Shown: one piece after another, positions 3,445 to 42,187 of the stretch
Numbering within the stretch: position 1 is the stretch's first letter
How the letters are laid out: each line of letters starts with the position of its first letter
Assembly (NCBI GenBank): GCA_021298975.1
Contig: JAJTGC010000011.1
Span: 1-42,494, forward strand
Length of the DNA stretch: 42,494 bases
DNA from: Oxalobacteraceae bacterium
GTDB taxonomy: Bacteria > Pseudomonadota > Gammaproteobacteria > Burkholderiales > Burkholderiaceae_D
Direction: 5' to 3'
Program-made: the position numbers and the translations under genes
The notes under the pieces: generated by a model
Told to the model about the DNA's origin: nothing
Database searches by the model: none
The model's input: the letters and a program-made list of their open reading frames with translations, nothing else

Positions 3445-4221
3445 ATGCTGATTGTTCTATCGCCTGCAAAAACGCTGGACTATGAATCGCCCCTCAGCGT
3501 CAAAACACATACCCAGCCGGATTTTATCCCGCGCTCGTCTGAGTTGATTGCGCTGCTGCGCGAGATGTCGCCGGCAAAGATCGGTAGTCTGATGAAGATT
3601 TCCGATTCGCTGTCGCATTTAAATGCGGCCCGATATGCGAGTTGGTCGAAAAAATTCAATTTCGATAATGCGCGTCAGGCGCTGCTGGCTTTTAATGGTG
3701 ATGTGTATGAGGGACTGGATGCAGCCAGTCTGAGCGAAAAGCAGCTTGGCTGGGCGCAGGATCATCTGCGTATTTTGTCGGGCTTGTATGGGGTATTGCG
3801 ACCACTCGATCTGATGCAACCTTACCGGCTTGAGATGGGTACCAAGCTGCCCAATGCGCGCGGCAAGGATTTGTATGCGTTCTGGGCAGATGAGGTGACC
3901 GCGGCATTGAATGCCTCGCTTCAGGCGCAGAAAAGCAAGGCACTGGTGAATCTGGCCTCGGAGGAGTACTTCAAATCAGTGAAGGCGGCATCGCTGGTCG
4001 TGCCGGTGATTACCCCCGTGTTTGAAGATTGGAAGGGCGGGAAATACAAGATCATTTCCTTTTATGCGAAACGCGCCCGTGGTTTGATGGCGCGCTTTGC
4101 AATCGAGAAAAAAATCACCCGCCCTGAGTCATTGAAAGATTTTGACAGCGAGGGGTATGCGTTCGAGCCGAAAGGTTCGGATGACGGTCATTGGTTGTTC
4201 AGACGTCGTCTTGCCGATTAG
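3445..4221 (+). CDS. yaaA: Peroxide stress protein YaaA (UPF0246/DUF328)
   Basis: The gene encodes 258 residues, the usual family size. The start at 3445 gives the characteristic N-terminus [14 protein letters not shown]; an upstream in-frame ATG at 3319 would add 42 residues that overlap the divergent PIN gene. Conserved family segments include [32 protein letters not shown] and the [13 protein letters not shown] region. In Escherichia coli YaaA lowers intracellular free iron and protects DNA during hydrogen peroxide stress; it is cytoplasmic. The same role is inferred here by family membership. The ribosome-binding site is weak. Downstream lie copy A of the intergenic repeat and the convergent bamD gene. 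Confidence 0.93.
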
Positions 4222-4296
4222 TCGCTCTTGCACACCATGACCACATCACCACAGATGCTGGCAAGAACGTAGAACCTGTCTTCTTAGACCGCTAGC

Positions 4297-4415
4297 GGCG
4301 TTGGCATCCCTTGCCGGGCGAGAGCTGGCTTGCATGCCAGTGCCGTTACGCAGGCGGGCGACATGGAGTCCGAATTCCCCGCTTCACCCTTGCTATCGGC
4401 CTGACGAGACAGGCT
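4297..4415 (+). repeat. Dispersed intergenic element, copy A
   Basis: This 119-base segment aligns without gaps to 11526-11644; I count 93 of 119 identical bases (about 78%). It lies between yaaA and convergent bamD. The short sequence GTCT 15 bases upstream (4278-4281) can pair with AGAC inside the element (4407-4410), within a 7-bp helix CCTGTCT/AGACAGG (4275-4281 with 4407-4413). CTGGC/GCCAG forms an internal hairpin. The strand is given as the shared orientation of both copies; transcription is not shown. Confidence 0.7.
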
Positions 4416-4445
4416 ACTAGACCGAGCGCACTGCGTGAGAGAGAC

Positions 4446-5249
4446 TTACCAGAACTTCCACCACGACTTGGTTGCTGCTTCCTGATCCGGCGCACGTACC
4501 GTTGAACTGACCTGATAGTTGAGCTGGAATACGCGCTCTGCATCATCGCGCAAGTCCGTCAGTCCCATCGCGTTGTAAGCCTGAATCTGAATGCGCAATG
4601 CGTTGCGCACGGATGGGGATGAGGGATAGTTGCGCATCACCACTTGGGCGCGGTTGACCGCGGCAACGTGAGCGCCCTTCATCAGGTAGTAGCTGGCAAC
4701 ATGAACTTCGTACTGTGCCATGGCTTCGACCAAATATTTCAGGCGATCGCGAGAATCTTCAGCATATTGGCTGTCGGGGAAGCGCTCGAGTAATTGTTTG
4801 AATGCTTCAAAGGCCGCGCGTGCCGCCTTGGGGTCACGCTCGGTCGGGTCTTGGCGGCTGATGAAATCGAACAGGGATTTCTTGTCATTGAAATTGGCCA
4901 GCCCGCGCAGGTAATACATGTAGTCCACGTTGGGATGATTCGGATGCAGGCGAATGAATCGCTCGACGGCCGCGAGGCATTGCGCCTGATCGTTTTGGCG
5001 GTAGTAAGCATAGGCCATATCCATTTGCGCTTGCTGAGCAAATTTACCAAATGGATAGCGAGATTCGAGTTTCTCGTAATACTTGATTGCCTTTTCGTAG
5101 CCGCCCGCCTTCAGCTCATCCCTGGCCTCAGCGTATAATTTCTCGGGAGACCAGCCTTTGGTTTCATCGCTCTTTTGGCCGATTGAGCCGCAAGCCGACA
5201 GCAGCAGCGCCAGCGTGAACACAGCATATTGCAGGAAAGTCTTGAGCAT
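4446..5249 (-). CDS. bamD: Outer membrane assembly lipoprotein BamD
   Basis: The gene encodes 267 residues from the ATG at 5249. A longer in-frame start at 5306 would overlap rluD and bury the lipoprotein signal, so it was rejected. The N-terminus MLKTFLQYAVFTLALLLSAC is a signal peptide ending in a lipobox. The rest is tetratricopeptide-like: AEARDELKAGGYEKAIKYYE, YRQNDQAQCLAAVERFIRLH, YMYYLRGLAN and LERFPDSQYAEDSRDRLKYL. BamD is the essential lipoprotein of the BAM complex that inserts beta-barrel proteins into the outer membrane, bound to BamA on the periplasmic side. It is divergent from rluD, an arrangement common in Betaproteobacteria. Confidence 0.95.
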   Translation of the reverse strand: MLKTFLQYAVFTLALLLSACGSIGQKSDETKGWSPEKLYAEARDELKAGGYEKAIKYYEKLESRYPFGKFAQQAQMDMAYAYYRQNDQAQCLAAVERFIRLHPNHPNVDYMYYLRGLANFNDKKSLFDFISRQDPTERDPKAARAAFEAFKQLLERFPDSQYAEDSRDRLKYLVEAMAQYEVHVASYYLMKGAHVAAVNRAQVVMRNYPSSPSVRNALRIQIQAYNAMGLTDLRDDAERVFQLNYQVSSTVRAPDQEAATKSWWKFW

Positions 5250-5293
5250 GGGACGGCGCTTGAGCAGGTCAGAAACGACGCCGATTATAGCCG

Positions 5294-6343
5294 ATGGACA
5301 CGCCATTGAAACGACAAAACATGAATGACCCGGCAGCGCAGTACGACGACGATGTCATTGAGGATGCCGAGGACTTCGACGTCACGGTACTCGCCACCGA
5401 CCCCGACCTTGCCCCCGATCTTGTGCCCCTGAGCCTGACCGTGGGCCTGGAGCATCGCGGCACTCGCGTTGACAAAGTGCTGTCACAGTGTCTGCCGCAG
5501 TTTTCCCGTTCGCGTTTGCAGCAGTGGATAGAAGCGGGTCTGGTCAGCGTCGACGGCAAGCCGTGCGGGGTACGCGAGATCATGCTGGGAGATGAGCGCA
5601 TTGTCGTCTCGCCCCAACCCGATCCTTCGTCGATGTCCTTTATCGCCGAACCAATGCCGATGTCGGTCGTGCATGAAGATGATGCCCTGATCGTCATCGA
5701 TAAACCCGTTGCCATGGTGGTGCACCCGGCGGCGGGTAACTGGACCGGTACCTTGCTGAACGGATTGCTGCATCGTTGGCCCGCGCTGCAGGGTGTACCG
5801 CGGGCTGGCATCGTGCATCGCCTCGACAAGGACACCACCGGTCTGCTGGTGGTTGCCAAGACGCTCAGTGCGCAAACCAGTCTGGTGCGGCAACTGCAAG
5901 ACCGCAGCATGAGCCGCCAGTATCTCGCGCTGGTCTGGGGGCAGACGGTCACCGGTGGACGCATTGAGGCCGCCATTGCACGCCATCCGCGCGAGCGTAC
6001 CCGCATGGCGGTCAGTCAGTCCATGTTGGCCAAGCCGGCGGTCACCCATTACACGCGACTGGCCACCGGTGTCCTCGATGGCAAGTCGGTATCGCTGCTG
6101 CAATGTCGGCTGGAGACGGGGCGAACGCATCAGATCCGCGTACATCTGCAATCCATCGGTTTTGCGCTGGTGGGTGATGCGGTGTACGGCAAATCCCATC
6201 TCACTGCCTTTTTCCCGCGTCAGGCCTTGCATGCAGAGCGGCTGGGGTTGGTGCATCCGACGTCGGGCGCGCTGTGCGAATGGCAGGCGCCACTGCCTGC
6301 GGACATGGCGGCGCTGCTGGAGCGCTCGGGCATTGTTCACTGA
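5294..6343 (+). CDS. rluD: 23S rRNA pseudouridine synthase RluD
   Basis: The gene encodes 349 residues. An acidic N-terminal tail precedes an S4 RNA-binding domain (about 50-110: RVDKVLSQCLPQFSRSRLQQ) and a pseudouridine synthase domain with the signature HRLDKDT at residues 175-181, where Asp178 is the catalytic aspartate. LETGRTHQIRVHL is the conserved C-terminal motif. RluD makes pseudouridines in helix 69 of 23S rRNA during late 50S assembly. The ATG at 5294 gives a slightly long N-terminus; a second ATG at 5321 (MNDPAAQ) is possible. The stop is immediately followed by the pgeF ATG, so the two genes are coupled. Confidence 0.93.
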   Translation: MDTPLKRQNMNDPAAQYDDDVIEDAEDFDVTVLATDPDLAPDLVPLSLTVGLEHRGTRVDKVLSQCLPQFSRSRLQQWIEAGLVSVDGKPCGVREIMLGDERIVVSPQPDPSSMSFIAEPMPMSVVHEDDALIVIDKPVAMVVHPAAGNWTGTLLNGLLHRWPALQGVPRAGIVHRLDKDTTGLLVVAKTLSAQTSLVRQLQDRSMSRQYLALVWGQTVTGGRIEAAIARHPRERTRMAVSQSMLAKPAVTHYTRLATGVLDGKSVSLLQCRLETGRTHQIRVHLQSIGFALVGDAVYGKSHLTAFFPRQALHAERLGLVHPTSGALCEWQAPLPADMAALLERSGIVH

Positions 6344-10140: not shown

Positions 10141-11502
10141 ATGTCTGATTCCCTGGTAACACCCAAAGTAGGTTTCATTTCACTCGGCTGCCCCAAGGCC
10201 TTGGTCGATTCCGAGCAAATCCTGACTCAGTTGCGCGCTGAAGGCTACGACACCGCCAAGTCCTATGAAGGCGCTGACCTCGTCATCGTCAATACCTGTG
10301 GCTTCATTGATGCTGCCGTCACCGAATCGCTGGATGCCATCGGCGAGGCGCTGAGCGAAAACGGCAGGGTGATTGTCACCGGTTGCCTGGGTGGTAAAAA
10401 AGACGCCTCGGGTCAGGATGTCATTCGTGCCGTGCATCCCAAAGTGCTGGCCGTGACCGGGCCGCATGCGCTCGCCGAGGTCATGGATGCAGTGCATCTT
10501 CATTTGCCCAAACCGCACGAGCCGTTCCTTGATCTCGTGCCGCCGCAAGGCATACGCCTCACCCCGCGTCATTACGCGTACCTGAAAATTTCCGAAGGCT
10601 GCAATCATCGCTGCAGTTTTTGCATCATTCCATCGATGCGGGGCGATCTGGTGTCGCGACCCATCGCCGAGGTCATGCTCGAAGCTGAAAATCTCTTCAA
10701 AGCAGGCGTCAAAGAGTTACTCGTCATTTCACAAGACACCAGCGCCTACGGTGTCGATGTGAAATTTCGTACCGGCTTCTGGCAGGGCAGGCCGGTGCGC
10801 ACGCACATGACGGATCTGGTTGCCTCGCTAGGTGCGCTGGCAAAGCACTACGGCGCCTGGGTCAGACTGCATTATGTGTATCCGTATCCGCATGTGGATG
10901 ACGTCATCCCGCTCATGAACGATGGCCATGTGTTGCCCTATCTCGATGTGCCCTTGCAGCACTCGCATCCGGATGTGCTCAAGCGCATGAAGCGTCCTGC
11001 GAATGGCGAAAAGAATATCGAACGCATCCGCGCCTGGCGCGCTGCTTGTCCCGATATCACGATACGTTCGACGTTTATTGCCGGTTTCCCCGGTGAGACC
11101 GAAGAAGAATTTACGCATCTGCTCGATTTTCTGAAAGAAGCGCAAATCGACCGCTTGGGTTGTTTTGCCTATTCACCTGTCGAAGGTGCCACTGCCAATG
11201 CGCTCGCTTCACCCGTGCCCGATGAAGTCCGCGAGGAGCGTCGTGCACGCGTGATGCAGCTGCAGGAAAGCATTTCCCGTACACGACTGCAGGCCAAAGT
11301 CGGCAAGACGCTCAGGGTGTTGATCGATCAGGTTGACCGCAATGGTGCGACCGCGCGTTCGTCTGCGGATGCGCCCGAGATTGATGGCGTGGTGTACGTC
11401 AAGCTGCCCTATGATCCGTCGATCAGTCTGAAGGTTGGTGAGTTCATTGACGTGAGAATCACCACAGCGGATGCGCATGACCTCTGGGGTAGTGCCGATT
11501 AA
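10141..11502 (+). CDS. rimO: Ribosomal protein S12 methylthiotransferase RimO
   Basis: The gene encodes 453 residues. The N-terminal methylthiotransferase domain has the three [4Fe-4S] cysteines C17 ([11 protein letters not shown], the RimO-type sequence), C53 (VNTCGF) and C82 (VTGCLGG). The radical SAM site is C154-x3-C158-x2-C161 in [11 protein letters not shown]-terminal TRAM domain follows. RimO adds a methylthio group to the conserved aspartate of ribosomal protein S12. The gene follows phaR with its own ATG. Copy B of the intergenic repeat begins 23 bases after its stop. Confidence 0.95.
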
Positions 11503-11525
11503 AAGTCTATCTCGTTGCCACCTGT

Positions 11526-11644
11526 GGCGTTGGCAAGCCTTGCAGGGCGCGTACTGGCTTGAATGGTAGTGCTGTCACGCAGGCGGACTGTATGCAGTCT
11601 GAATTCCCTGCTGCATCCTTGTCATCAACCTAACGAGACAAGCT
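11526..11644 (+). repeat. Dispersed intergenic element, copy B
   Basis: This is the second copy of the 119-base element at 4297-4415, in the same orientation with no gaps. It fills the gap between rimO and the beta-lyase gene and ends 24 bases before the GTG start. A 7-bp perfect helix TCTCGTT (11510-11516) with AACGAGA (11632-11638) can enclose it; GTCT/AGAC (11505-11508, 11636-11639) is an alternative closing pair that matches copy A. GACTG/CAGTC forms a small internal hairpin. It could be a leader element of the downstream gene or an independent repeat. Confidence 0.7.
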
Positions 11645-24202: not shown

Positions 24203-24279
24203 GCGGCTGTAGCTCAGCTGGATAGAGTACTTGGCTACGAACCAAGGGGTCGTGGGTTCGATTCCTGCCAGCCGCACCA
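24203..24279 (+). tRNA. tRNA-Arg(ACG)
   Basis: The gene spans 77 bases including an encoded CCA. The acceptor stem GCGGCTG pairs with CAGCCGC; the D-arm contains AGCTCAGCTGGATAGAG and the T-arm GTGGGTTCGATTCC. The anticodon stem CTTGG/CCAAG encloses the loop CTACGAA, so the anticodon is ACG (24237-24239), read as ICG after TadA deamination for CGU/CGC/CGA codons. A terminator follows. Since tRNA 3' ends often serve as integration sites, the accessory genes that follow are notable, although I saw no second copy of the 3' end by eye. Confidence 0.97.
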
Positions 24280-38434: not shown

Positions 38435-38457
38435 AAAAAAAACGACCCAGAGGTCGT
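38435..38457 (-). terminator. Rho-independent terminator downstream of pqqA
   Basis: On the minus strand ACGACC-TCTG-GGTCGT (38457-38442) is followed by seven T (38441-38435). It ends the pqqA transcript before the P450 gene. Confidence 0.88.
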
Positions 38458-38476
38458 CTTTCAGCAAGCTTTTGGT

Positions 38477-38505
38477 TGGCAGCCAGTCAGAAGACCAGGC
38501 TGCCA
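38477..38505 (-). other. Hairpin between pqqA and its terminator
   Basis: TGGCAGCC (38477-38484) and GGCTGCCA (38498-38505) form an 8-bp perfect stem with a 13-base loop, 11 bases after the pqqA stop; GGTT/AACC can extend it. It could stabilise the short messenger. Confidence 0.55.
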
Positions 38506-38515
38506 GATAACCGAA

Positions 38516-38590
38516 TTAACGGTTAGCGATGTACATCGTGATTTCGAAGCCGAAACGCAGATCAGTCGCTGCAGGTGTAGTCCATGCCAT
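38516..38590 (-). CDS. pqqA: PQQ precursor peptide PqqA
   Basis: This 24-codon gene is too short for usual gene finders. It starts at the ATG 38590, with AGGAG 6 bases upstream, and ends TAA at 38516-38518. The peptide begins MAWTTPAATD and continues LRFGFEITMYIANR. It matches the PqqA family: Glu16 and Tyr20 (E-I-T-M-Y) are at exactly the positions that are cross-linked to make pyrroloquinoline quinone, and the FGFE-x3-Y-x-ANR frame is conserved. The usual pqqBCDE genes are not adjacent; instead a hairpin and terminator follow. It would feed a PQQ pathway encoded elsewhere. Divergent from a MoxY-like kinase. Confidence 0.92.
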   Translation of the reverse strand: MAWTTPAATDLRFGFEITMYIANR

Positions 38591-38696
38591 GATTATCTCC
38601 TAATGAGTTTATGTAACCGAACAGAAAACCCGTTCAGCGATCGCGATGATGGCCTTTGCCCTGACATCATGCATCTGTGAAACACGTAAATTAGGC

Positions 38697-38712
38697 TCAT
38701 GATTTTCATGAA
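38697..38712. promoter_or_regulatory. Candidate operator between pqqA and the sensor kinase gene
   Basis: Two palindromes, TCATGA (38697-38702) and TTCATGAA (38705-38712), are separated by two bases in the ~245-base divergent region. They could bind a regulator such as the adjacent LuxR-type protein. Weak evidence by eye. Confidence 0.3.
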
Positions 38713-38836: not shown

Positions 38837-40261
38837 ATGACAACGACCAACCCCACCGAGACCAAGGCCGCCACTTTTGTGGACCTTGCTGCCGCATCCC
38901 GCCCTGGCATGAGCCTGCGGCTCAAGATCAATCTGATTTTTCTGGCACTGACCGTGCTCGTCTTCCTGATCCTGATTCGGGTCGAGGTCAGCGCCACGCG
39001 CGACAGCGTGCGCGAGGAGATGGAAGCCTCCAGTCGTATTGCCGCGCAGTTGCTGGCGCGCGTGAGCAGCTCTTATGTCAATGACGACCTGACAGAGCTG
39101 ATCGGCTTTCTGCAAGCGACCGGCCGCATACGCGCCAATGACATTGTCTTGTATGACAAATCAGGCATATTGCGCTACCAGTCACCGCCGTCGGTGTACA
39201 AGGCCGGGCGCGACGCGCCGCAGTGGTATGCCAGCGTGGTCTCTCCGCCGGAAATGAAGCGAGTGATTGGGATCGGTGACGCGCGGCTGGTGATCATTAC
39301 CAACCCGACGCGTGCCATCCTCGATGGCTGGGACAATCTGCGCGACATCTTGCTCGCGCAATTGATTCTGTTCGTATTGGCCGATATTGCCCTGTTCTGG
39401 CTGATCGGTCTGTGGGTCGCGCCATTGGAAAAAATCGAGCGCGGTTTGAGTGAGATCGAGCGCGGCGATCACCAGGTGCGCCTGCCGCCCTTGCTGGGCA
39501 AGGAAGCAGGCCAGATGGGACGCACCTTCAATCGCATGGCGCAAGCCGTCGAAGACAATATTCAGGTGCGACAGGCCAGCGCCGAGGCTCAGGCTCGGCT
39601 GTATGCACAGAGAGACTTTACCAAGCAGCTGCATGCGCGCATCGAAGAGGAACGTGCTGCGCTGGCGCTTGAGTTGCATGATGAGTTGGGGCAGTCGCTG
39701 ACTGCCATTCGCAGTATTTCCAAGTCGATGATGCAGCGTCCGGATGTGGCCGGCGGTCCGCTGGAGCAGCACGTCAAGATGCTGTTTGACACGGCGGGCA
39801 TGACCTCGGATGCCATGCATCGGATGATTCCCCGGCTGCGTCCGATCAAGCTTGAGGGCATGGGCCTGGTCGATGCGGTACGCGATTTGCTGACCGAAAC
39901 ACAGCAGAATAATCCCGAGATACGGTTTGATCTGAAAGTGACGGACAGCATACCGCCGCTGGAGGAATCACTCGAGCTGTCTGCCTATCGTATCGTGCAG
40001 GAGGCGGTGACCAATATTGTCCGTCATGCCGGCGCCACCCGAGCACACATCAATATCAGCAGCGGTGACGGACAATTCACGCTCGTCATTTCCGATAACG
40101 GACGTGGCGCGTCTTCGGTCAAGCGTGAGGGTCACTACGGTGTACGTGGCATGCAGGAACGCGCCGAATCACATGGTGGTCAGATTGCGTTTCAGACCGC
40201 AGCTGAAGGCGGACTCGAAGTGGTCGTCTCACTTCCCATCAAAGAAAATCACAGCTCATGA
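38837..40261 (+). CDS. MoxY/NarX-like sensor histidine kinase
   Basis: The gene encodes 474 residues from the ATG at 38837; starts at 38699 and 38909 are alternatives. Two membrane segments (LKINLIFLALTVLVFLILI and LLAQLILFVLADIALFWLIG) flank a periplasmic region with YDKSGILRYQSPPSVYKAGR, typical of the LapD/MoxY N-terminal sensor type. A HAMP region, a HisKA_3 domain with His281 (LALELHDELGQSLTAIR), and an HATPase domain (AYRIVQEAVTNIVRHAGATR, ISDNGRGA) follow. It phosphorylates the regulator encoded next (ATGA overlap). Kinases of this type control PQQ-dependent alcohol dehydrogenases in other bacteria, consistent with divergent pqqA; that role is inferred. Confidence 0.87.
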   Translation: MTTTNPTETKAATFVDLAAASRPGMSLRLKINLIFLALTVLVFLILIRVEVSATRDSVREEMEASSRIAAQLLARVSSSYVNDDLTELIGFLQATGRIRANDIVLYDKSGILRYQSPPSVYKAGRDAPQWYASVVSPPEMKRVIGIGDARLVIITNPTRAILDGWDNLRDILLAQLILFVLADIALFWLIGLWVAPLEKIERGLSEIERGDHQVRLPPLLGKEAGQMGRTFNRMAQAVEDNIQVRQASAEAQARLYAQRDFTKQLHARIEEERAALALELHDELGQSLTAIRSISKSMMQRPDVAGGPLEQHVKMLFDTAGMTSDAMHRMIPRLRPIKLEGMGLVDAVRDLLTETQQNNPEIRFDLKVTDSIPPLEESLELSAYRIVQEAVTNIVRHAGATRAHINISSGDGQFTLVISDNGRGASSVKREGHYGVRGMQERAESHGGQIAFQTAAEGGLEVVVSLPIKENHSS

Positions 40262-40899
40262 AAAAAACAATCAATGTCATGCTGGTCGACGATCATGCCG
40301 TGGTGCGTATGGGGTTTCGCATGCTGCTCGAAGCGACCGAAGATATCCGTGTCGTGGCCGAGGCAGAGTCGGCCGAGGTGGCGTATCAGCAGATAGCCAC
40401 TACCCAGCCGGATGTGATCGTGATGGATATTTCGCTCGGTGGAACCATGGGCGTGGAGGCTACGCGCCGTATCGTGGCACGCGACAAGCATGCGCGCGTG
40501 CTGGGTTTGTCTTCGCATGAAGACCCGAGCTATGTACGCTACATGCTCAAGGCCGGTGCACTCGGTTATTTGTCCAAGCGCACCGCACCGGACGAGTTGA
40601 TACACGCGATACGGCAGGTTAATGAAGGGCGTATGTATATCGACAGCCATTTATCGCAGCGCATGGCGCTGGAAGAGTTCAACGGCGAAAAAAGTCCGAT
40701 CGAAGTGCTGTCGGAACGAGAGTTTGGTGTCTTTATCCAGCTCGCCAAAGGCGGGTCGGTCAATCAGATTGCCGAAATGCTCAATATTTCACCGCGTACC
40801 GTCGGTACCCATCTTTATAACGTCAAGCAGAAACTTGGCGTTGCCAATCAGGCTGAACTTACGCTGATCGCTGTAAGACATGGGTTGATTGAATTGTAG
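40258..40899 (+). CDS. NarL/FixJ-family response regulator (MoxX/AgmR type)
   Basis: The gene encodes 213 residues. The receiver has VMLVDDHAVVRMGFRMLLEA with phosphoacceptor Asp57 in VIVMDISLGGTMG. The C-terminal LuxR helix-turn-helix is LSEREFGVFIQLAKGGSVNQ followed by IAEMLNISPRTVGTHLYNVK. Its ATG overlaps the kinase stop, so the pair is one operon. MoxX, AgmR and ErbR regulators of PQQ-linked alcohol oxidation belong to this group. Together with pqqA on the other side of the kinase gene, control of PQQ-dependent oxidation is a reasonable hypothesis. A hairpin terminator follows. Confidence 0.88.
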   Translation: MKKTINVMLVDDHAVVRMGFRMLLEATEDIRVVAEAESAEVAYQQIATTQPDVIVMDISLGGTMGVEATRRIVARDKHARVLGLSSHEDPSYVRYMLKAGALGYLSKRTAPDELIHAIRQVNEGRMYIDSHLSQRMALEEFNGEKSPIEVLSEREFGVFIQLAKGGSVNQIAEMLNISPRTVGTHLYNVKQKLGVANQAELTLIAVRHGLIEL

Positions 40900-40963: not shown

Positions 40964-41107
40964 CGGCTATCATTTTTAGCAGTGGTTCCCCTGATTTAAT
41001 CTATGGTCGTGCGCATCCGCGTTTACCGCGTGCCATTCTGCGCATATCGGATACGGACTTTTTTCAATCGAATTGCTGGTTTTTTTAGCATATTTATCGA
41101 GCTGACT

Positions 41108-42187
41108 ATGCTTCCATCGTTGAAGGGAAAAGCTGACGACCGTTCCACGGGTAATTTTTTGAAGCTCGATAACGATATCTCTCTTTCAAAATCCGGGTTG
41201 AAAGTTGAAACGGTATTTTTTGATACGTCAACGGGTGGGGCACGATCAAAAAATTTATTTACTTTTATTTTTGGAAAGGTGATGGAATGGCGTGCTAAAA
41301 ATTGGGTTAAAAATTTTGTGGAAAAAAATAAATACTACTTGCCGGGCGCTGATATATTTTTAAAAAATATAAATTCTTCTAGCGGTGTCAAGCGAAACGA
41401 AGTTATGTCGCTTTTGGCTTCAGCAAAAATTGCTCGATCGCCCATTTTTTCAATGCCAGAAAAAAATACTCAAGGCTTGAATGTCAATTATTTAATTAAA
41501 GACCCCGGCGAGAGTGTAATAGATTTTTTTGTTAAATCAATTGATCCTGCGCCCAGCAGAGATGCTGTAAAAGTTTTTTTCAATTTTGTTGAAAAAGGTT
41601 CATCTGCGATTAATTACGGAAATGCTCCGGATGCACTGAATTTTTTGGATAATTTCCGACTATGGTCTGAAAAAAATCCGGAAGATAGTTTGCTAAAAAT
41701 GGTCAGAGGGAATGTAAATTTATTTCGTTCATCGGTAATAAAAAAAATAGATGAATTTAATCCGAAAAATAATGACACGGAAAATAAAACAAAAAATATA
41801 AAAATGGCTGTAAATGAAAAGAACATAAAAGACGCATTCGACATAGTTCGGGAAGAGGAAGATAGGTCTAAATTTTTATTTTATGAATCTCTTGGTTCTT
41901 TTAAAAATAGTTCAATTGCTTATTTTTTGGGCTACATCCGCAACGGCGCTTCTGCAATAAATTTTTCAAATATAGAAAAACTTGAATTATGGGCGAATAA
42001 GGAAATGCAAATTTTTATTGAAAGCCCTTTATTGGATCATCAATACCTTATCCCTTCCTTGCAAGTGGTTTGTAATCAATTAAAAATTAATATTAGGGAA
42101 TTTAATGGAGATTCTTACAAGGGCGTTATTGATAGGCCAGATTTTTTTGCGCCAAAAACTATCGCTCATTCAGACAATGATTCGTGA
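41108..42187 (+). CDS. AT-rich gene of unknown function with an internal duplication
   Basis: The gene encodes 359 residues from the ATG at 41108 (MLPSLKGKADDRSTG); an upstream ATG at 41003 would add an Arg/Phe-rich leader. The sequence is clearly foreign: a sampled line (41281-41340) has 17 G or C in 60. Lys, Asn, Phe and Ser dominate. There is no signal peptide, no membrane segment and no known motif. Two parts resemble each other: FFNFVEKGSSAINYGN, then LWSEK and DEFN, and YFLGYIRNGASAINFSN, then LWANK and REFN, so a helical repeat module was duplicated. Possible roles include a secreted effector or defence protein; no function is claimed. Confidence 0.7.
   Translation: MLPSLKGKADDRSTGNFLKLDNDISLSKSGLKVETVFFDTSTGGARSKNLFTFIFGKVMEWRAKNWVKNFVEKNKYYLPGADIFLKNINSSSGVKRNEVMSLLASAKIARSPIFSMPEKNTQGLNVNYLIKDPGESVIDFFVKSIDPAPSRDAVKVFFNFVEKGSSAINYGNAPDALNFLDNFRLWSEKNPEDSLLKMVRGNVNLFRSSVIKKIDEFNPKNNDTENKTKNIKMAVNEKNIKDAFDIVREEEDRSKFLFYESLGSFKNSSIAYFLGYIRNGASAINFSNIEKLELWANKEMQIFIESPLLDHQYLIPSLQVVCNQLKINIREFNGDSYKGVIDRPDFFAPKTIAHSDNDS

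Follow-up and report, generated by a model that had tools for sequence, protein, structure and literature searches.

An orphan pqqA gene with a divergent two-component pair and a shared palindromic box in a genus of Burkholderiales

The window, which is the whole 42,494-nucleotide stretch of DNA analyzed here and the entire contig C60 of the draft genome G000, carries a pqqA gene detached from pqqBCDE. The preferred reading, to which we assign a probability of roughly three in four, is that this is a working pqqA that would supply its peptide in trans to PqqB, PqqC, PqqD, and PqqE, within a two-component regulon of precursor supply and PQQ import. In such a regulon, a histidine kinase would sense an unspecified signal and act on its response regulator, which would bind a palindromic box (TCATGAAAATCATGA) and so alter transcription of each pqqA copy and of an importer gene in genomes that have one there. 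The PqqA peptide would then meet PqqE and PqqD made from another locus, and precursor supply and PQQ import would be set jointly by the regulator, with the enzyme genes left outside the box regulon in the genus. Binding of the box by the regulator, activation as the direction of control, reception of a signal by the kinase, and use of this PqqA by PqqE are inferences. PQQ serves dehydrogenases that oxidize alcohols and sugars, and to our knowledge little is understood, beyond a few model organisms, of how bacteria adjust PQQ supply to need.

The pqqA gene and its separation from pqqBCDE

The gene (38516 to 38590, minus strand) encodes a 24-residue PQQ precursor peptide and is preceded by the ribosome-binding site AGGAG (38597 to 38601, minus strand), which is kept in other copies as judged by eye. 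The frame matched both Pfam PqqA (PF08042; E 2.2e-10; 40.7 bits, cut-off 21.1) and NCBIfam TIGR02107 (39.6 against 20; E 3.2e-10). The glutamate and tyrosine that become PQQ, three residues apart, are present as Glu16 and Tyr20, and the initial annotation of a 24-codon pqqA with a strong ribosome-binding site and these two residues is borne out. Excluding one operon copy (in G010), the genus holds 26 orphan copies with 21 distinct nucleotide sequences and 20 variable codons; 19 of these 20 vary synonymously only, the exception being codon 2, and Glu16 and Tyr20 are unchanged throughout. This pattern indicates that the window pqqA is under purifying selection.

Two RNA structures are predicted 3′ of the coding frame on the minus strand. 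The hairpin in the 3′ untranslated region (38477 to 38505) folds at -21 kcal/mol, a value equaled by none of 200 shuffled sequences, and the stem with a U-run that follows (about 38435 to 38462) is equaled by 6 of 200; taken jointly, the two reach a z score of -4.75 and 0 of 200 shuffles. The first had been described as an 8-bp hairpin, and the strong fold stands, but 8 bp is the outer stem only, to which a 4-bp inner stem with a bulge is added. The second is likely a rho-independent terminator of pqqA, as had also been claimed; that assignment draws on the fold and on stem plus T-run sequences seen by eye 3′ of other pqqA copies in the genus, because a simple consensus scan at the window pqqA picked out no terminator and no sigma-70 promoter. 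The next gene on the same strand is a cytochrome P450 gene (37130 to 38350; PF00067, E 3.5e-32), as first annotated. Elsewhere in the window, a 394-codon frame (41003 to 42187, plus strand) has no Pfam match, and a tRNA gene (24203 to 24276, plus strand) is the sole Rfam match above the gathering score.

The absence of pqqBCDE beside the window pqqA, noted from the start, is confirmed; pqqB, pqqC, pqqD, and pqqE lie together on contig C21, each above its NCBIfam cut-off. A working precursor had been said to depend on finding pqqC and pqqE in the genome and the peptide in relatives, and both were found. On C21 there is no pqqA before pqqB, and a prolyl aminopeptidase-like gene adjoins the stretch there; the arrangement of a pqqABCDE operon, with pqqA immediately 5′ of pqqB, does not occur in this genome. 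G000 encodes three PQQ-dependent alcohol dehydrogenases above cut-off, including one beside pqqBCDE, where a quinoprotein alcohol dehydrogenase lies about 2.8 kb downstream, and a search for PqqF found no match over the cut-off (best, 62.7 of 320 bits). A second pqqA with an identical peptide sits on contig C18 (73573 to 73644; 9574 to 9645 of the extracted locus L005), where it likewise has a box and a terminator-like stem; a third listed PqqA match, at E 0.24, was taken as noise and not counted. The suggestion that the window gene might be a second copy is correct insofar as two identical PqqA genes exist, although neither adjoins pqqB. The C18 copy lies between genes that we label FAD oxidoreductase-like and Cys-rich (YkgJ-like), and G002, G006, G013, and G018 have one or both of these neighbors at their second copy too.

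Most titles of named contigs that match the genus of the window read Oxalobacteraceae or Burkholderiaceae, and several of these contigs come from ponds or lakes. Among 21 genomes of the genus, 19 carry pqqA (27 copies above cut-off), and the two PqqA-less genomes (G004 and G015) both have pqqE. The region before a pqqB of this type could be read in 14 genomes, and none of them has pqqA beside it, a count that leaves out the pqqE contigs of G013, G017, and G019 as well as G004 and G012, which are seen from pqqC on only. G010 has a pqqABCDE operon of another type (PqqB, 64% identical) in addition to an orphan pqqA. Detachment of pqqA from pqqBCDE is a trait of the genus. Outside it, pqqA stands immediately before pqqB in 20 of the 22 Burkholderiales genomes with PqqA, as read from the sequence; of the other two, G096 fits this arrangement by position only, and G114 shows an independent split, its pqqA being about 40 kb from pqqE. 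At one further locus (L191, contig C31 of G105, positions 3910 to 5407), a second pqqA is followed by pqqD and pqqE, and tblastn found no pqqB or pqqC there; the arrangement resembles the divergent pqqADE islands reported in the available text of PMC4109929.

The two-component pair, the palindromic box, and a PqqU-like importer

Divergent from pqqA, the window encodes a membrane histidine kinase with HAMP, HisKA_3, and HATPase_c domains (38837 to 40261, plus strand; Pfam) and, adjacent to it, a NarL/LuxR-type response regulator with Response_reg and GerE domains (40258 to 40899, plus strand; Pfam), which is the proposed binder of the box. The combination of a HAMP-containing HisKA_3 and HATPase_c kinase with an adjacent receiver and GerE regulator is that of a two-component system, and the regulator passed none of the NCBIfam cut-offs for named regulators. 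Because the listed start of the kinase frame (38699) overlaps the box, the ATG at 38837 is the more likely start. The pqqA gene, which had been said to stand alone, is indeed detached from pqqBCDE, but it forms one half of a divergent locus with this pair. The same divergent arrangement is present in 18 of the 19 pqqA-bearing genomes of the genus. The exception is G012, in which the contig ends 571 nt upstream of a boxed pqqA, and a genome search there found no regulator of ortholog rank.

A scan of named genomes for the kinase returned 30 loci, of which 11 distant ones have a long match (L124 to L134; the short domain matches L135 to L137 were left out). In 8 of these 11, from Rhodocyclaceae, Variovorax, Derxia, Steroidobacter, and other proteobacteria, the pair is divergent from an intact pqqA-pqqB start, and in all 8 pqqA is preceded by TCATGAAAATCATGA or a closely related version of it; the remaining three (L128, L129, and L131) have no pqq gene within the DNA stretch examined. 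All 32 genomes with the regulator at E 1.9e-71 or better have PqqA, compared with 41 of 116 genomes overall. Two genomes (G236 and G291; loci L310 and L311) encode regulator relatives that are 51 to 52% identical, with no pqq gene within 12 kb and no PqqA beyond E 1e-4 in the genome.

The box, a 15-base palindrome proposed as the operator, occupies positions 38697 to 38711 (minus strand), with its 5′ end 121 nt upstream of the pqqA ATG, and is the single match in the window at up to one mismatch. At the same tolerance and within 400 nt, it lies upstream of 25 of the 27 pqqA copies in the genus; the two copies without it (G007b and G018b) had only 86 nt of upstream sequence scanned. The box precedes both pqqA copies of G000, and the remainder of their two leaders differs. 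A 16-base version has exactly two exact sites in G000, both upstream of the pqqA genes, and with two mismatches it gives 36 matches against 2 for a reversed control. A wider box regulon in G000 was considered and is not convincing, with most of the ten near-box stretches viewed, a subset of the two-mismatch sites, lying inside or at the start of unrelated frames. A scan of 600 nt upstream of pqqB, allowing up to three mismatches and ending before the start codon, found a box in 0 of 14 genomes of the genus. A near-box with two mismatches does overlap the pqqB start codon in G000, in a stretch that the genus conserves; pqqB may therefore not lie outside the box regulon, and the enzyme genes may also be under the box.

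Box and regulator coincide in the 22 other Burkholderiales genomes with PqqA: all 14 genomes that have the regulator have the box, and none of the 8 that lack the regulator does (Fisher's exact test, 3.1e-6, which ignores the kinship of the genomes). The regulator cut-off in this comparison, E 1.9e-71 or better, was placed at a gap in these very data when the boxes were already known. Counted by pqqA copy, the box is found at 24 of 28 in regulator-plus genomes, the other four having none within 400 nt, and at 0 of 8 in regulator-minus genomes. In G091, all three stand-alone pqqA genes are boxed, and the regulator is some 35 kb or more away.

A hold-out search covered 369 genomes of the class at a regulator cut-off fixed in advance (E 1e-55) and yielded 49 further genomes with PqqA and 77 upstream regions (one of 89 bases). 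At that cut-off, the test failed: the box was present in one of the 17 genomes that have the regulator and in none of the 32 that do not (p 0.35), and a link of box and regulator across the wider class was rejected. At the stricter ortholog gap of about 1e-70, the same data give 1 of 1 and 0 of 48. The one boxed genome (G389) has its kinase pair divergent from pqqA and a regulator of 58% identity (E 6e-71), the only one to reach the ortholog gap, so the distribution indicates that this regulator is accompanied by the box and that its 43 to 53% identical relatives are not. In G274, where a 49% identical regulator lies beside pqqA, the palindrome is changed to TCAGGA-AAA-TCCTGA in 3 of 7 pqqA regions; this variant, noticed after the fact, is as expected if site and regulator change together. 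G274 holds nine pqqA matches in one genome (L249 to L252 and L307 to L309). Upstream of pqqA in several other gammaproteobacterial genomes (L236, L237, L246, L253, L254, and L265) is a TGGCAC...TGC stretch, which we take to resemble a sigma-54 promoter.

The import side of the proposed regulon comes from the gene 3′ of pqqA, which is a P450 gene in 7 loci of the genus and a PqqU-like receptor gene in 6 others (G001, G002, G005, G007, G009, and G014); G002 has the receptor after pqqA, and its close kin have the P450. The receptor of the genus loci matches the PqqU model NF041535 at E 1.2e-163 with 546 and 511 of 1200 bits, below the equivalog cut-off, so membership in PqqU is not established by that threshold, and PqqU is nevertheless both the best match and the best solved structure: the receptor matches PDB 9c4o at E 1.5e-123, and among solved structures YncD and the PQQ transporter are closest to it. 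At E 1e-100, a receptor is present in 8 of the 12 genus genomes searched and absent from G000. In 5 of the 6 loci, the PqqU-like gene has a box of its own between pqqA and the receptor; G001 has a 13-base variant in that space, and in G114, outside the genus, one box stands upstream of the PqqU-like gene. The earlier proposal that a detached pqqA lets peptide supply be controlled separately thus gains comparative support from the regulator pair and the box.

Origin of the split locus and competing explanations

One account of how the arrangement arose, compatible with a working pqqA in a two-component regulon and in our view evenly poised, is that the genus is a hybrid: pqqA and the pair would derive from a regulator-linked pqqABCDE locus, and pqqBCDE from a box-less pqqABCDE-alcohol dehydrogenase locus minus its pqqA. 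In a concatenated PqqB/C/E tree, the genus groups with the box-less G023, G026, G031, and G049 (bootstrap, 96), and in G031 and G049 the alcohol dehydrogenase near pqqBCDE is 80 to 82% identical to the one on C21. Forcing the genus together with the G010 operon copy, G034, G037, G044, and G052 was rejected (delta lnL, 133; p-AU, 8e-5, with an IQ-TREE warning that a reliable AU test needs more than the 5000 replicates used), although two members of that group (G037 and G044) have no regulator. The regulator tree separates a group of the genus, G034, and G052 from all others (support, 100), placing these two inside the genus with weak support. Against a hybrid origin, the rpoB tree leaves the family unresolved, and vertical descent of pqqBCDE with a transferred regulator locus is therefore equally possible.

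The hybrid account would also make the ribosome-binding site and ATG before pqqB a fossil of the lost pqqA. An ATGC element, which is what the script searched for, stands 133 to 157 nt ahead of pqqB in all 14 genomes; about half of them pair it with a strong ribosome-binding site, and no reading frame is conserved there. In box-less operons, pqqA starts 138 to 170 nt before pqqB. The ATGC stretch is perhaps such a fossil. In locus L006 (about 11460 to 11620), the element and a ribosome-binding site precede pqqB, again with no frame conserved in 14 genomes. A conserved leader peptide at this place was rejected because the frames run from 6 to 45 amino acids in three different frames.

The strongest competitor to the preferred reading, which we regard as unlikely, is that this is one more orphan pqqA like those of methylotrophs, under no special regulation. 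The box would then be a promoter element of a generic type, and the kinase pair would be adjacent by chance or as a passive neighbor. Multiple and separately placed pqqA genes are indeed reported (PMC4109929, PMC9851590, and PMC11317620), and the class test at its pre-set cut-off showed no link between box and regulator. The methylotroph strain described in PMC9851590 nevertheless retains one operon pqqA, whereas here none stands beside pqqB, and among the Burkholderiales genomes with pqqA all 8 without the regulator lack the box and all 14 with it have the box, even where the regulator is distant (G091).

A different proposal, that the orphan peptide serves a purpose other than PQQ, such as metal handling, follows a speculation about orphan pqqA in Methylorubrum extorquens (PMC11317620) and would suit a peptide gene that is detached and separately regulated. 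We consider it very improbable: the two identical copies are the sole PqqA sequence in a genome that has the full pqqBCDE and PQQ enzymes, and the crosslinking residues are invariant in 26 copies. That a pqqA before pqqB exists in the species and was lost from a broken assembly is scarcely credible even for a 2.69-Mb draft in 131 contigs (88.6% complete), since C21 runs unbroken through the region before pqqB, which likewise lacks pqqA in all 14 readable genomes of the genus.

Because precursor and enzymes are naturally separated here and a single short box marks both the precursor genes and the importer gene, the old idea that peptide supply limits PQQ becomes directly testable. The box would offer a searchable mark for PQQ regulons, and the pair is a candidate sensor. 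A bolder extension, which we hold tentatively and somewhat short of an even bet, is that this is a dedicated PQQ two-component system that sets make-or-take through the palindrome from Burkholderiales to other proteobacteria, with variants that change together with the regulator; in the genus, only the peptide would be under the switch, and peptide supply would be the control point of PQQ.

Comparison with known systems

Orphan pqqA genes are already in print. A description of the pair and box was not found in the literature searched, most subscription journals lying outside it, and the palindrome strings occur in no paper of that literature. Compared with canonical pqqABCDE, the precursor peptide family and the four maturation proteins are the same, all above NCBIfam cut-offs; the difference is that pqqA here is on another contig than pqqBCDE and in two copies, each with a leader and a terminator-like stem.

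The methylotroph genes are similar in being separate, single pqqA genes, several per genome, with one set of the other genes. Methylophilaceae are reported to have 3 to 12 pqqA copies (PMC4109929), and a Methylovorus-like strain has five, three of them separate and one in pqqABCDE (PMC9851590), which differs from the absence of any operon copy here. In M. extorquens, the orphan pqqA2 and pqqA3 respond to the neodymium source, and in Methylovorus, peptide supply is reported to be a possible limit on PQQ (PMC11317620). Neither a two-component pair nor a shared palindrome is mentioned for these orphan genes in the available text of the papers.

In Pseudomonas, AgmR/ErbR and partner kinases include a LuxR-type activator that promotes the PQQ biosynthetic genes (PMC12997753). 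The link of a LuxR-type regulator to pqq genes is the same as that proposed here, the gene arrangement is different, and PMC12997753 gives no binding motif or palindrome. PqqU is a TonB-dependent PQQ importer (PMC12124388; PDB 9c4o), and its synteny with the biosynthesis operon is reported for only four Burkholderiales genomes (PMC12124388). Unlike the operon synteny described there, the PqqU-like gene in this genus adjoins a pqqA without pqqBCDE.
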